64,000 nt of DNA, taken from positions 1,425,550 to 1,489,549 of the forward strand of contig OY725493.1 of NCBI GenBank assembly GCA_963281255.1, in the 5' to 3' direction. The notes under the pieces were generated by a model. The model did not search any database, was not told where the DNA came from, and saw only the letters and a list, made by a program, of their open reading frames with translations. Positions 54,027 to 64,000 of the stretch are shown here, one piece after another. The position numbers and the translations under genes are program-made. The stretch comes from Aphrocallistes beatrix (lineage: Eukaryota; Porifera; Hexactinellida; Sceptrulophora; Aphrocallistidae). Positions within the stretch are counted from its first letter, which is position 1. The number at the start of each line of letters is the position of its first letter.

Positions 54027-57000
54027 CTATACATGTGTGGAAAAGTTGTGCTTAATGCATAGCTGTGTCAGTTTACAGGGCAGTCTGTCATCGAACGAAC
54101 TGTAATGCTGTATCAACTCATCTACTGATATAAAGCGAGGCCCATCGTCTATACCGTAGAGAGGGTTGCTTACCGCCCCATGATTCTGAATTTGGAAATT
54201 TCTTAGCTGTCCATGCGATACCATTGTTAGGACGTAGCTGCCCTTATACGTAGTGCTCTCTCGGATCAGATAGATGCCGTCCACACTCCCGACGGAGAAG
54301 ATACGATGAGCTGCTTCATCTCTGCTGATTTGCCCGTGGAACCAGGACTTGTCTTGAAATACGTGTGCTGCAGCCGTTTGAGGTTTAGGCGGGGAAACAA
54401 TTGGTTGTATCGGTACTATGGGTCTTAGACCTGGAATTTGGTGTTGAATTGGCTGTACCAGTGCTGTGCGCGTTTGGTGAGGAACTGGCTGTACCGGCAT
54501 TGAAGGAATTTGGTGAGGAACTGGTTGTACCGGCATTGAAGGAATTTGGTGAGGAACTGGTTGTACCGGCATTGAAGGAATTTGGTGAGGAACTGGCTGT
54601 ACCGGCATTGAAGGAATTTGGTGAGGAACTGGTTGTACCGGCATTGAAGGAATTTGGTGAGGAACTGGTTGTACCGGCATTGAAGGGATTTGGTGAGGAA
54701 CTGGCTGTACCGGCATTGAAGGGATTTGGTGAGGAACTGGTTGTACCGGCATTGAAGGAATTTGGTGAGGAACTGGCTGTACCGGTATCGAGGTCTGTAG
54801 TGTAGGGTTTTGATGGGGAGCAGGTTTCTTTCTCTTCTCAGGAACAAAAGGTGTCGGAATATGAACTATTTGCTGAGGGTGTGGCGGTGATACGTTAGCT
54901 TGCTGTGGCATTGGAGGTTGAACAGAGTTGGGTGCATACCTGGAGTCCTGTTCTGATCTCGGAATGAACAGAGGCTTTTTAGAGGGTTTAGGCGCGACAG
55001 GTCTCGGTTGGAAGGCGGGAGGTTGCAGGATAGGAGCAGCGGGTTCGGGGGGTCGGATGTTGAGATTCGGCTCCGTCTGTTGCTGACTGAGGGTGTGCTG
55101 TGGCGAGCGGATGGGGAGTTGCGAGGTTGGAGGAGGGAGGTGCAGGGCACCGGGGTGTTGAGAGGGAATGAAGGGCTTCGGATCCTCGGTGGGACTTATG
55201 ATGGAGAGTCTGTGTGGACTGAGAGTGTATGGAGTTGGCACAGAGGGGGAATGGTCCCGCGTTCCCGAAAGGGATTGGGTGAGGGGTGTTTTAACCTCCA
55301 TGACAGCTGAGGCGGGGGCAGAACTCCTTCTGTTGAGCTGGGAGTTGGGGGTGGGGGTCTGGTGAGGGGGACTGCCGCTATCTTGCAGAGGTTCGTCCCT
55401 CTCCATCTGAGCCAGCTTGAAGTCCTTGTTCTGCATGGACACAAAGTTCTCCTTCAGTTGGGGACCGCCGTGCTTGACGAGTCGGATTCCTGAGAGCCAG
55501 GAGTACATGAGTCTCTTGTTTGGCGCACAGAAGCACTTGAGATCCCCCAGGCCAACATTCAAATGGCGCCCTTGCGGCTTGAGAACGAAGCAGTAGTTTT
55601 TAGGCGCGGAGTAGAGCTTCCTGTAGTTGTCAGCAACGTAGATATCATGGTCATTGATGGAGCAGAATGACACGAGGTGCTTGGACTGCTTGGACTTGCC
55701 ACGGTTGGAGTAGTATATCCCGGAGCCCCGGAGTAGGACGAACAGTCTCTTCCAGGGCTTCTTCCCGTCCTTAATGACCAGCAATCCCTCCAACTCAGGG
55801 ATACGGCCCTGCTCGGAAAAGTATTCGTTGATGAGCATCTTTCTCGCTCGGTCCGTCCGAGCGTCTTTGGTACTCTTGGCCTGCTCGCTGGACAGACAGA
55901 GCTCTGCGGGGAAGTACTCGTACGGCCGATGGAACAGATCGTACTTGTATTCGTCGTTCTTGAATATGAACATGTTCTTTGTATCCCGAGGCCAGGCCTG
56001 GTAGGCGTCAATCACAATCTCGTGGTCCTCTAGCATCCGGTGCAGAGAGAACTCGGGAAGAAACTCGACCAGTCCCCAGTTGGGCGAGTCCGAGGTGTGA
56101 TTCTTCATGATGAGGGTCTGTGCCACATACCACGCCTGCATGTCATCGTCCACCACCACAGTCTTTGCGCTCATGTCCTCGTTAAACGCCTTTATCACGA
56201 TCTTCTGCTTGCTGGCCACCTTCATCTTCTCAAGAGCGATTTTGATCTTCTCCTCCTTCAGCATCTGATCCTTCTCTGCCAAACTGAGGTTAGCGTCCAT
56301 GTCCAAATCCTTGCTTAGCTCCTCTAGCCGGGACTTCACTTGGTCCGGTTGCAGGTGCTGCGGGGTGGCGAGGAGTCGTGTGGGGTCCGTGTTGTCGGAG
56401 GTGGGTTTGCTGAGGGTTTTGGAGCGGGTCATAAAGGCAGGAAGAGAGCTCTTCGGATCTAGCAGCAATGGGTCTTGCCTCGATTCATTCACTTCTGGAA
56501 ATTCCATTGAGATGGACTTTCTGGGGGATAAGACGGTTTGTGAACGAGGGTGCAAGTTCGAATCTGAGAAATCTTCAGAGGGGTAACTCTTAGCGGTGGA
56601 GAGAGAGGGAGGGATGTAGTTGAGAATGGGAGCTTCTTTTTCAACCTTCCCCTTATTCTTTTCAATCTTCTCCAGTTCTGCCACCGGGTTGAAGGAGTAG
56701 AGGTCCTCCAACAGGTCGTCAAGGTCGATGTCCTCTCCTCCCACCTGCGTACTCTCCTGCAGCGTGTCCGTCGTGTACACGGAGCTGCGCACGGCCGGTG
56801 AGGTGGGGTTTGGACTCTTCATACGCGTGATTTGATTCGCGAGGGGAGGTGGGTCATCAGCTGATTCACCATCTGTGTACTCGCTCAGCTCACCGAGGAG
56901 AGTGCCCAAATTCCAGATCGCAGCGTTCAGGTCCTCTCCTTCCTCTGGCTGGCTGACAGGCTGCTGCGAGGGCGGCGGTGCCTCTTCATGGCTGGTCTGA

Positions 57001-59883: not shown

Positions 59884-60690
59884 TAACCAGCTAATCCAAA
59901 GTTCAAAAACATCTTAATTAGGTACATACAGTCAGGGTCGCTTATTATGAACCCGCTTAATATGAACATTCGTTTATTATGAGCTAACCTCCTGGTCCCA
60001 ATTTCATTTTTAGATAGGATTTGTATTGAATCAAGTTCGCTTAATATGAAGTATCTCTATTATGAACAGATTTTTTGGTCCCCTGGTGGTTCACAATAAG
60101 CGACCCTGACTGTATGTTACTTACGATTGTTATTCATTTTCTGAAAAGCTTATCCATTGTTAATCTAATGAATAGCGATCGTACTTGGTTTATGCACGGT
60201 CCTGTGCGTACCAGGAAATTCAAGGATCACAAAACGGGCATTTATCACACAACCAAAGTAGAACACACAGGAGTAGAGTTTTGATTTTTTACAAAGAGTG
60301 GGGGAGGACGATATTCGGCCCTCAGTCATTGGTGAACTGTTAAAGCTCAGTGAATGACTTTGATTCAAAATTTACCAAATCAACTAGTGAGATAAAGGCA
60401 CTAAACGTCCATGAATCCCATTCTTAACCATTGAGAGAACCTACGATACTTCTATTTTAGAGATATGAAAAATTTATTTCCACTCATACACTAATTCTAT
60501 GCCTATGAGCACAGATATAAAGAGTTTAGTGATAAAACTGAACAAATACATAAATTGCTAACCATTAGTCCTACTCAATCACAAATACATCACATATCTA
60601 TCATTCATTAAAACAGAACAATAATTATCCGCAAATCGGAAATACCTAGTACTTAAATTTTGAACTCACGTTCTTCTCTTATCGAAAGAA
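59884..60690. other. Intergenic, DNAJC28 promoter to LCLAT1 copy A 3' side
   Basis: 800 bases containing the MITE at 59929-60112, which begins only about 45 bases upstream of the DNAJC28 start codon. Otherwise no features. Confidence 0.55.
59929..60112. mobile_element. 184-bp pogo-like MITE close to the DNAJC28 start
   Basis: The termini CAGTCAGGGTCGCTTATT are exact inverted repeats for 18 bases and continue with few mismatches (ATGAAC / GTGAAC). TA lies on both sides (59927-59928, 60113-60114). Internal segments CGCTTAATATGAA and TTATTATGA repeat the terminal motif. Such a clean duplication suggests recent insertion into the DNAJC28 promoter or 5' UTR. Confidence 0.9.
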
Positions 60691-62480
60691 TCATGTTTCT
60701 TTTTTATTAAAATTCTTTAAAAAGTTGCGAGCAATGAACCTCTCCACTCCGTCATACTTGACCTGGACGTAGTAGAAGAGAGGAATGAGGAGGTAGTAGG
60801 CTAGTGCGTAGCGAGGCCAGACAAACCAGTGGAAGTAGGTGATGATGAAAGGAGAAGTCCAGAAGAGAGCGACCAGTACTTTCTTCAGCAAGCTCTTTTC
60901 CGGCAGGTGTCTAGCCTCTGTCCCGAATGAGAAGTCCCCTTCATAGAACCGCTTCAGTCTCTCCTCCTTCTCCCTCCACACCTCTCTCAACCAACCCTCT
61001 CTCCCCTCCTCACTCGAAGGAATGTCTGACAGTTTGTACTGCTTCAAGTGGAAGTGAATCTCTTTAGGAATGTAACCCTAGTAATTCGCGTTAATATGGT
61101 AGGTATTTTAGTATTAAATGAGAACACATAAAATCCCACACAAACCTTGAAGAATACCCACTGATTGATAGGAATGTTTCCTTTGTATCCTAGTGTTACG
61201 TCTATGACTGTGTCGAGATACACGTCCTCGGATGTAGGCGCGCTTGTGCAGGGGTAGAGCTTCTCTAGGAAGTAGAGGAAGCCAGTGCTGCGAGGGTGGA
61301 GTGTGTATTCGTATCCTGGAAGGCCATTTGCCTCGGCAAATTTTTTAGATTTGGGCTAAAGTAATAAATGTATTAATCAGTTTGAGGCTTAGCTCTACTA
61401 TCAACAAGCACGCTTTGCGCACTTACGTATCGAACACTGTGTTTCCCCTGCAAAGTGCTAATATGGTTTACAATCACTAAACCATGGATGCATAAGTAAA
61501 TATAAAGAGTTTCATCGATGTGTCGAGCTTGTGATTCTTACCTCAGTGAGAGGGTGGAGGTTGGTGCCTTCTGGGAAGATGAGGAGGTGATACGGCTCTC
61601 CAGAGTGCTTGTAGTAGGAGAGCATATCATCCACGTAACCCTTGTCTTTATCCCACGACCGCTTCAGGAAGATAAAAGCACACTGCTGCATCCCCCAGCC
61701 TAGCATGACAACGAGATAGTAGCAGGGATATGTAACAATTATAATCAAAATAGCTGCAAACTAAAAGTAAAATTGATTTATTTCCTAAATAAATAATGTC
61801 GCAGAACCCATTCAGTCCCAAATACTCGTAGATAGAATCAATTGAATAACCAAACCCACCAAAGCCTGGAACCATTCTGAGCTCATTCTTGAGGACAATC
61901 TTGGTATACATGTGGGACCCTAGCTTGTCCACTAGACACCAGTAGTACATCCAGTCCAGCATGGTTCTGTGATTCATAATCAGAAAGCTCCTCCTCGGAA
62001 AGTTCTGAGCATCGCCTGTTATTATAACTTTCGAACCGAGAAGAGCTAGAATTCAATACAGTATAGTCAACATCCTACACAGTTAAACACTAGAATTAAA
62101 ACACTGAAGAGATTTGTCAGGTCCCCCCAGGCCATCATCAGCTCATAGCTTTCAGCTATAACTCACATAGTATATTCTTTGTAGCAGCAAGCGAGCATAG
62201 AGGAATAGAGAATGATAGAATAGGATAATGAGCGGAGAACAGAGATAATATCACTCACAGTAGAGAACTCGAGCCACAGTCCAATGAACAGCTCACAGAG
62301 CCTCCGATGCAGAGGCTGGTAGATGTATAGCAGTGGAATCCAGATCATCTGGAAGTAGAATGAGGAGAGAGAGGTGATGAAGAATAGGATGAAGGAGAGA
62401 GTCACCTTTACACCACTGAGGAACGCACCCACAGGGCCTTTCCTCTCCACGATGACAACCTCACAGTGACGTAGTGGCAT
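60691..62480 (-). CDS. LCLAT1: LCLAT1-like lysophospholipid acyltransferase, copy A
   Basis: Membrane acyltransferase of the AGPAT8/LCLAT1 branch, which reacylates lysocardiolipin and other lysophospholipids at the ER and mitochondria-associated membranes. Five exons on the minus strand: 62255-62480, 61860-62045, 61542-61699, 61146-61355, 60691-61077, total 1,167 nt (388 aa). The first donor is GTGATA; the GTGAGT four bases upstream would give a frameshift. An N-terminal membrane helix comes first, then KVIITGD and the catalytic NHRTMLDW (H-x4-D), then VPGFG and LLIFPEGTNL (glycerolipid-binding motif), HPRSTGF, EIHFHLKQY and EKEERLKRFYEG, and two C-terminal membrane helices. All key motifs are intact. 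The last exon is almost identical to that of copy B, although the others are diverged. Confidence 0.9.
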
Positions 62481-62579
62481 TGTAAACTAATGTAACTGAC
62501 ACAATTGATCGAAATAATACTAAAGATAAACGATTATTTACAATTGTAAAAATAATTATATCAAGTGCATCGAATTAAT

Positions 62580-63844
62580 TTAATTTGTTTTCGTGTTCTT
62601 TTTAAGAAATTTCGCAGCAATGAACCTCTCCACTCCGTCATACTTGACCTGGACGTAGTAGAAGAGAGGGATGAGGAGGTAGTAGGCTAGTGCGTAGCGA
62701 GGCCAGACAAACCAGTGGAAGTAGGTGATGATGAAAGGAGAAGTCCAGAAGAGAGCGACCAGTACTTTCTTCAGCAAGCTCTTTTCCGGTAGGTGTCTAG
62801 CCTCTGTCCCGAATGAGAAGTCCCCTTCATAGAACCGCTTCAGTCGCTCCTCCTTCTCCCTCCACACCTCTCTCAACCAACCCTCTCTCCCCTCCTCACT
62901 CGAAGGAATGTCTGACAGTTTGTACTGCTTCAAGTGGAAGTGAATCTCTTTAGGAAAGTATCCCTACAACATTCAGATTGAACAGACCCTGCGGGGTTCA
63001 AGTTATATAAATCCTACTACAAACCGCGAGGAGTTTCAATTCGTCCACCATGAAGTGTCCCTTGTACCCGATAGTGATGTCTATGACAGCATCGAGAGCA
63101 GACTCATCCGGATCTGAAGAGTTCCTCTCAAGCTTGTCGAGCATAGAGATGAACCCGGTGCTGCGGGGGTGCAGGGAGTAGGCGTACTCAGGGAGGTTGC
63201 AAGACTTCGCGTATTTATTCGAGTGACCCTGAAGAGGTGTTAATCAACAGAAACTGACCTTGTTGTTAAATTGATAAAATTGAATACACAGAAGTCAGAA
63301 CTAATACAATATAAATATCAAATTATAATCTTACCACAGTATTCGCAGTTAGATTAGTTCCTTCCGGGAATATCAGGATATGGTACTGGATGTTTGAGAG
63401 TTTGTAGTAAGAGAGAATCTGATCTAGGTAGGCTCTGTCCTTATCCCAGTCTCTCTTCAAGAATACGTACATGCACATCTGCATTGCCCATCCTAAAACA
63501 GAATGCGTGCTTTAATTATCAGAAATAAATTAGGAATTATCTTCTCAATTACAATCAGCAGACAAAATAAAATTTCAATACAATTTCAAATGTACAAATC
63601 CTAAATTAGTGAATGAGAAATTATCCATAAATGCATACAAAGCAATCTCACAGCTCACCAAATCCAAGTTGCAACTTCAGTCCTTCCTTGAGGACGATCT
63701 TAGTGTTTCTGTTAGAGGCGAGAAAGTCCGCTAAATACCAGTAGAACAGGAAGTCCCACCTAGTTCTATGGTTCATTATAACCAAACTTCTAGGAGGAAA
63801 GCGCCTGAAATCTCCTGTCAAGATATGCCTGCAACCAAACGTAG
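62580..63844 (-). CDS. LCLAT1-like lysophospholipid acyltransferase, copy B (5' incomplete)
   Basis: Tandem paralogue upstream of copy A with the same exon plan. Visible exons: 63659-63844, 63335-63492, 63025-63228, 62580-62963. Exons two and three have exactly the same lengths as in copy A (186 and 158 nt) and all phases agree. Motifs: NHRTRWDFLFYW (H-x4-D kept), LGFG|WAMQMCMYVFLKRDWDKD, ILIFPEGTNL, HPRSTGF, EIHFHLKQY. The exon starts in phase 1. The first exon is not settled: the stretch 63921-64000 has a donor-like site but a stop upstream in the needed frame, so the first exon is probably beyond the window. No disabling change in the visible part. Confidence 0.85.
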
Positions 63845-64000
63845 CTAAAATATACATAAATAAATCCACTATATATTATGCTGTGGCAGATCCTAACTCA
63901 ACTAATATGACTCGACTTACACAACAAAATCTGTGAGAGGAACCATTGGAGAAATAGAATACAGAAGAATTAAGCATGGAAAAATCTAGAATTTTTGAGA

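Follow-up and report, generated by a model that had tools for sequence, protein, structure and literature searches.

The acyltransferase gene pair

The window, a 64,000-nucleotide stretch of Aphrocallistes beatrix DNA, covers C7:1425550-1489549 (C7 being contig OY725493.1) in an assembly of 100.5 Mb and 28 contigs. At its far end, two genes, here called A and B, lie head to tail on the minus strand, with 99 bp between the stop codon of gene B and the ATG of gene A. Gene B starts beyond the window end. Splice models of both genes were placed by hand from open frames and splice signals (Table 1), and the spliced models predict proteins of 390 residues for A and 388 residues for B. Exon number and phases are common to the two models, and two exons have identical lengths of 186 and 158 nt. 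The preliminary description had read these shared lengths as a sign of an old duplication, and the models confirm the lengths.

Both predicted proteins carry PF01553 (Acyltransferase) followed by PF16076 (Acyltransf_C), each above the curated cut-offs, which is the domain order of LCLAT1-type proteins. PF16076 occupies residues 261-335 of protein A, nearly all of them encoded by the last exon, and residues 259-334 of protein B. The genes are putative LCLAT1 copies, a name that comes from the preliminary description and from known motifs. A search of solved structures (E up to 10) returned three matches, one of which was a distant acyltransferase, 5kym (E 0.0013); the other two (E 0.23 and 2) were taken as chance. 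The proposed microexon has the same length (10 nt) and phase in both genes, and its acceptor context in gene A is weak by eye. Two repeats were also seen in the window. At 59924-60117 there are 30-nt inverted repeats that are 97% complementary and 134 nt apart, possibly the remnant of a short DNA transposon, and at 54361-54863 there is a tandem repeat with a period of 36 nt, which is divisible by three, with ten registers among those listed.

Table 1. Positions of gene features (window numbering), and of neighbouring families and families set aside in the survey (C7 coordinates)
Feature	Position	Strand	Remark
Gene A last exon (exon 5)	60691..61077	-	387 nt including stop codon; AG acceptor, frame open to TGA
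Gene A near-identical tract, read as converted	60730..61070	-	3 mismatches/341 bp, all synonymous
Gene A exon 4	61146..61355	-	splice model
Gene A exon 3	61542..61699	-	158 nt; splice model
Gene A exon 2	61860..62045	-	186 nt; holds NHRTMLD motif; splice model
Gene A proposed microexon	62167..62176	-	10 nt; hand-placed as an in-frame link between exons 1 and 2
Gene A exon 1	62259..62480	-	from ATG; splice model
Gene B last exon (exon 5)	62580..62963	-	384 nt including stop codon; splice model
Gene B near-identical tract, read as converted	62616..62956	-	3 mismatches/341 bp vs gene A
Gene B exon 4	63025..63228	-	splice model
Gene B exon 3	63335..63492	-	158 nt; splice model
Gene B exon 2	63659..63844	-	186 nt; splice model
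Gene B proposed microexon	63921..63930	-	10 nt; hand-placed
Gene B exon 1	64028..64252	-	beyond window end
FMN_dh-type trio	C7:1490387-1495074 (L004:387-5074)	+,-,-	three open frames
MFS pair (PF07690)	C7:1510450-1514160 (L035:450-4160)
Set aside: duplication	C7:1534547-1537330/1541736-1544511		94.9% nt identity, ~7 kb apart
Set aside: flank of that duplication	1533476/1539492		94%
Set aside: palindromic/repeat stretches	near 1495.5-1496.6, 1514.6-1515.4, 1520-1522, 1561-1562.6, 1568.6-1569.6 kb
Set aside: distant pair	1515703/1532114		30% protein identity, ~15 kb apart
Set aside: distant pairs	1515703/1546256, 1425066/1544571, 1467800/1563121, 1538194/1568103

A near-identical tract inside the last exon

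Within their last exons, A and B share a tract whose two copies align throughout at an offset of 1886 and differ at just three positions, 60784 (A/G), 60904 (C/T), and 60960 (T/G). By NG86, 3.0 of 70.7 synonymous sites differ across its 112 codons (dS 0.044) and there are 0 nonsynonymous differences (dN 0), leaving the two proteins identical across the tract. The longest run with at most three differences was 113 codons, compared to a maximum of 27 when codon columns were shuffled. None of 10,000 shuffles reached the observed run and, thus, the tract is longer than expected from randomly spread differences. GC3 was considered as a possible sign of GC-biased conversion; in the tract windows it was 0.68-0.76, within the spread of the rest (0.40-0.84). 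A whole-genome DNA search with 60731-61070, in which counts are lower bounds, gave no third copy of the tract among the matches listed.

Outside the tract the genes are very different. Exons 1-4 have 46% protein identity and 57% nucleotide identity in the NG86 codon alignments, and their pS of 0.765 is saturated, too high for a finite dS. Protein identity was 30%, 52%, 62%, and 44% in exons 1, 2, 3, and 4, respectively. When the region was compared to itself by blastn (E 1e-10), the pair gave one match, the last exon (366 bp, 97.5%), and no alignment between introns was found at that sensitivity. These results bear out most of what the preliminary description had reported: a near-identity of about 340 bp with three differences and the same protein, other exons about half identical in protein, and introns that do not align. 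It had also proposed comparing synonymous divergence exon by exon, and this proved not to be uniformly low. Local near-identity that includes synonymous sites, between paralogs diverged elsewhere, is the pattern by which a conversion tract is recognized, and it was found here.

Next, A and B were compared with three acyltransferase paralogs from the same genome, located on C1 (7.725 Mb), C6, and C3; PF16076 matches nine places in the genome, and these three paralogs were the ones aligned. In each of exons 1-4, the fraction of residues identical between A and B (21/74, 33/65, 33/53, and 30/68 in the paralog alignments) was greater than in any comparison with the three paralogs. A and B are thus closer to one another than to these paralogs outside the tract, which suggests that they arose by tandem duplication rather than being unrelated genes with one exon in common. 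An old age for the A/B duplication is well supported.

The same paralogs bear on whether purifying selection on the C-terminal module could have kept the two last exons alike, as the preliminary description had suggested for the C-terminal membrane module. The identical proteins would fit with this, but the synonymous sites are near-identical too, and constraint on a protein cannot hold them. Moreover, when A and B are set against the three paralogs, their last exon does not clearly stand out as better conserved than exons 2-4. The first part of exon 5 of A had 19/69, 18/66, and 19/72 identities with the C1, C6, and C3 paralogs, and the second part had 6/32, 11/40, and 9/27. For A, this amounts to 19-33% in exon 5, against 22-36% for exons 2-4; the corresponding values in B were 19-33% and 22-30%, with the top value for exon 5 (9/27 with the C3 paralog, a small sample) slightly above those of exons 2-4. 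Protein constraint was therefore rejected as the explanation, and we consider it extremely improbable. On these two grounds, conversion is preferred over constraint. Non-allelic gene conversion between A and B is well supported, and the low dS of the tract against the saturated exons 1-4 supports the recent conversion that the preliminary description had put forward.

Another possible explanation is partial duplication or insertion, in which the original last exon of B (or A) was lost and a fresh duplicate of the other gene's exon took its place. This would account for the last exon being the only similar one of the five main exons. A fresh duplicate, however, would be expected to bring flanking intron or 3' sequence along, and both ends of the tract lie inside the exon. 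On the acceptor side, 7 bp of exon sequence remain outside the tract in each gene, a limit close to the splice site as the preliminary description had said; on the stop side, where it had placed the limit just before the stop codon, the end is now refined to 36 bp (A) and 33 bp (B) before it. The first two codons, the last 11-12 codons, and the flanks beyond them are outside the tract and diverged. At the diverged exon ends some residues remain identical, but the ends are too short for this to prove old homology. Diverged ends inside the exon, short as they are, argue for replacement within an existing homologous exon and against an inserted exon copy. We regard a fresh duplicate as very unlikely.

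Patchwork in neighbouring families and the wider survey

Two further families within 30 kb of A and B have a similar patchwork. The first, made up of the next genes upstream, is a trio of open frames without apparent intron, with pairwise protein identities of 78%, 79%, and 86%. The second frame, the one scanned, matched FMN_dh (PF01070), and the frames are presumably hydroxyacid oxidases. Two blocks with pS mostly 0.00-0.17 surround a middle of ~75-125 codons where pS is mostly 0.35-0.91. In the first two frames, GC3 is higher in the blocks (0.44-0.72) than in the middle at residues 152-228 (0.08-0.48). Just past the trio, at C7:1495486-1496578, lies a palindromic repeat of ~1.1 kb that matches its reverse complement at 89% identity. 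The second family, the MFS pair, has 182 identical codons in a row, and the flanking 25-codon windows have pS of 0.50-0.96, except for one transitional window at 0.11. GC3 in this block (0.24-0.64) showed no clear rise compared to the flanks. For all four pairs from the trio and the MFS family, the observed runs were reached by 0 of 10,000 shuffles.

Because one family has inverted copies and no introns are seen in the frames of either, such patchwork needs neither exon borders nor unequal crossing-over. The preliminary description had called the A/B conversion confined to the last exon. The wording is accurate, but the exon itself probably does not cause the confinement, since both neighbouring families are patchy inside single open frames. 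The two families also bear on the concern that the A/B tract is an artefact of assembly or polishing, given that polishing can go wrong in near-identical repeats separated by 1.9 kb. Polishing is expected to homogenize only sequence that is already close. In A and B, the flanks of the copies differ, three sites within the tract differ, and both frames are intact; a similar pattern in two families of other lengths and orientation also speaks against an artefact, to which we give hardly any weight.

On C7 the survey extended over 150 kb, and on C1 over a single region of 60 kb. In the C7 part, frames of at least 40 residues were compared at E up to 1e-5. Coding families were counted if their copies lay no more than 5 kb apart and their frames had partly diverged, a rule that was set after the families had been seen; 3 of 3 such families are mosaics. 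The listed duplication, repeat stretches, and distant pairs were left out of this count by judgement (Table 1). In one of the distant pairs, 1515703/1532114, no near-identical nucleotide tract was present among the matches listed.

On C1, an AGPAT-like cluster at 9.77-9.80 Mb was considered as a parallel and rejected, since its pieces are 87-96% identical in nucleotides among the first 60 matches listed and look like recent copies. A five-copy array near this cluster has frames of ~393 residues, one of them 273. Across its 10 pairs, the number of shuffles (out of 2000) that reached the observed longest identical run varied between 0 and 355, a mixed result, and the array thus offers only mixed support for conversion patchwork elsewhere in the genome. 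It is possible, though we hold it tentatively, that ectopic conversion is unusually active in this chromosome stretch or in the whole genome and turns old, close tandem pairs into sharp-bordered mosaics of identical islands and saturated flanks.

Proposed mechanism and known systems

We propose, with a probability of roughly 90%, that A and B stem from an old tandem duplication and that the interior of their last exon has been kept alike by ectopic conversion, the latest event leaving it near-identical. In this model, exons 1-4 and the introns would have diverged past the reach of homologous recombination, while the interior of the long last exon would have stayed alike enough to act as a template for ectopic (non-allelic) conversion. 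The most recent event may then have left the tract nearly identical. As read from the sequence, this conversion would be what caused the near-identity. One difficulty is that a single exchange between exons ~57% alike, the value for exons 1-4, would be unusual, as 57% nucleotide identity is far below the usual homology needs for exchange. We therefore assume repeated conversion, with the tract as the last survivor and the one most recently renewed. Homogenization would have recurred since the duplication, rather than in one late event, and divergence itself could form the barrier at the tract ends. Stretches still alike would be kept alive by conversion and diverged ones would drop out; in A and B, the survivor would be the longest exon. 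Conversion probably continues wherever homology remains and is blocked by introns and diverged exons.

This would have consequences for dating, as ages given to these duplicates, or trees built on the last exon only, would come out wrong. The three unrelated adjacent tandem families, direct and inverted, with and without introns, would also make up a compact natural test, both of the homology required for ectopic conversion and of the sharpness with which divergence brings it to a halt.

A literature search on single-exon conversion in tandem duplicates, the last exon, sponge genomes, and LCLAT1 duplication found nothing on the A/B gene pair among the records listed. Similar cases are described for other genes. 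In the account of GOT1Sd and GOT1Sr from the copepod Tigriopus californicus, conversion between the paralogs is largely restricted to exons, because a large intron can no longer be aligned; the intronless GOT1p1 and GOT1p2 have diverged regions beside regions kept alike in a single exon (PMC3728101). The likeness lies in conversion bounded by an unalignable intron and in diverged islands within one exon. In contrast to A and B, which come from one genome, several Tigriopus populations were compared, and the coding sequences of GOT1Sd and GOT1Sr are, in the same account, not substantially diverged, whereas exons 1-4 of A and B are saturated at synonymous sites (PMC3728101).

For Caenorhabditis paralogs, the sections of a review that deal with them describe tracts shared by duplicates that lie close together, whether direct or inverted, usually reported for exons and tending to 50-200 nucleotides (PMC3966223). 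Tract means there run from 58 to 416 bp, and tracts in a genome-wide set of 7,829 pairs span 12-2,958 bp (PMC3966223). The A/B tract is likewise short, exonic, and located between nearby duplicates. Some C. elegans conversions enter introns, 15% of the detectable ones in a study cited by that review, whereas the A/B tract reaches none (PMC3966223). Judged by analogy, A and B would be a further example of a known, ordinary process, one that fits both the Tigriopus and the Caenorhabditis precedents.
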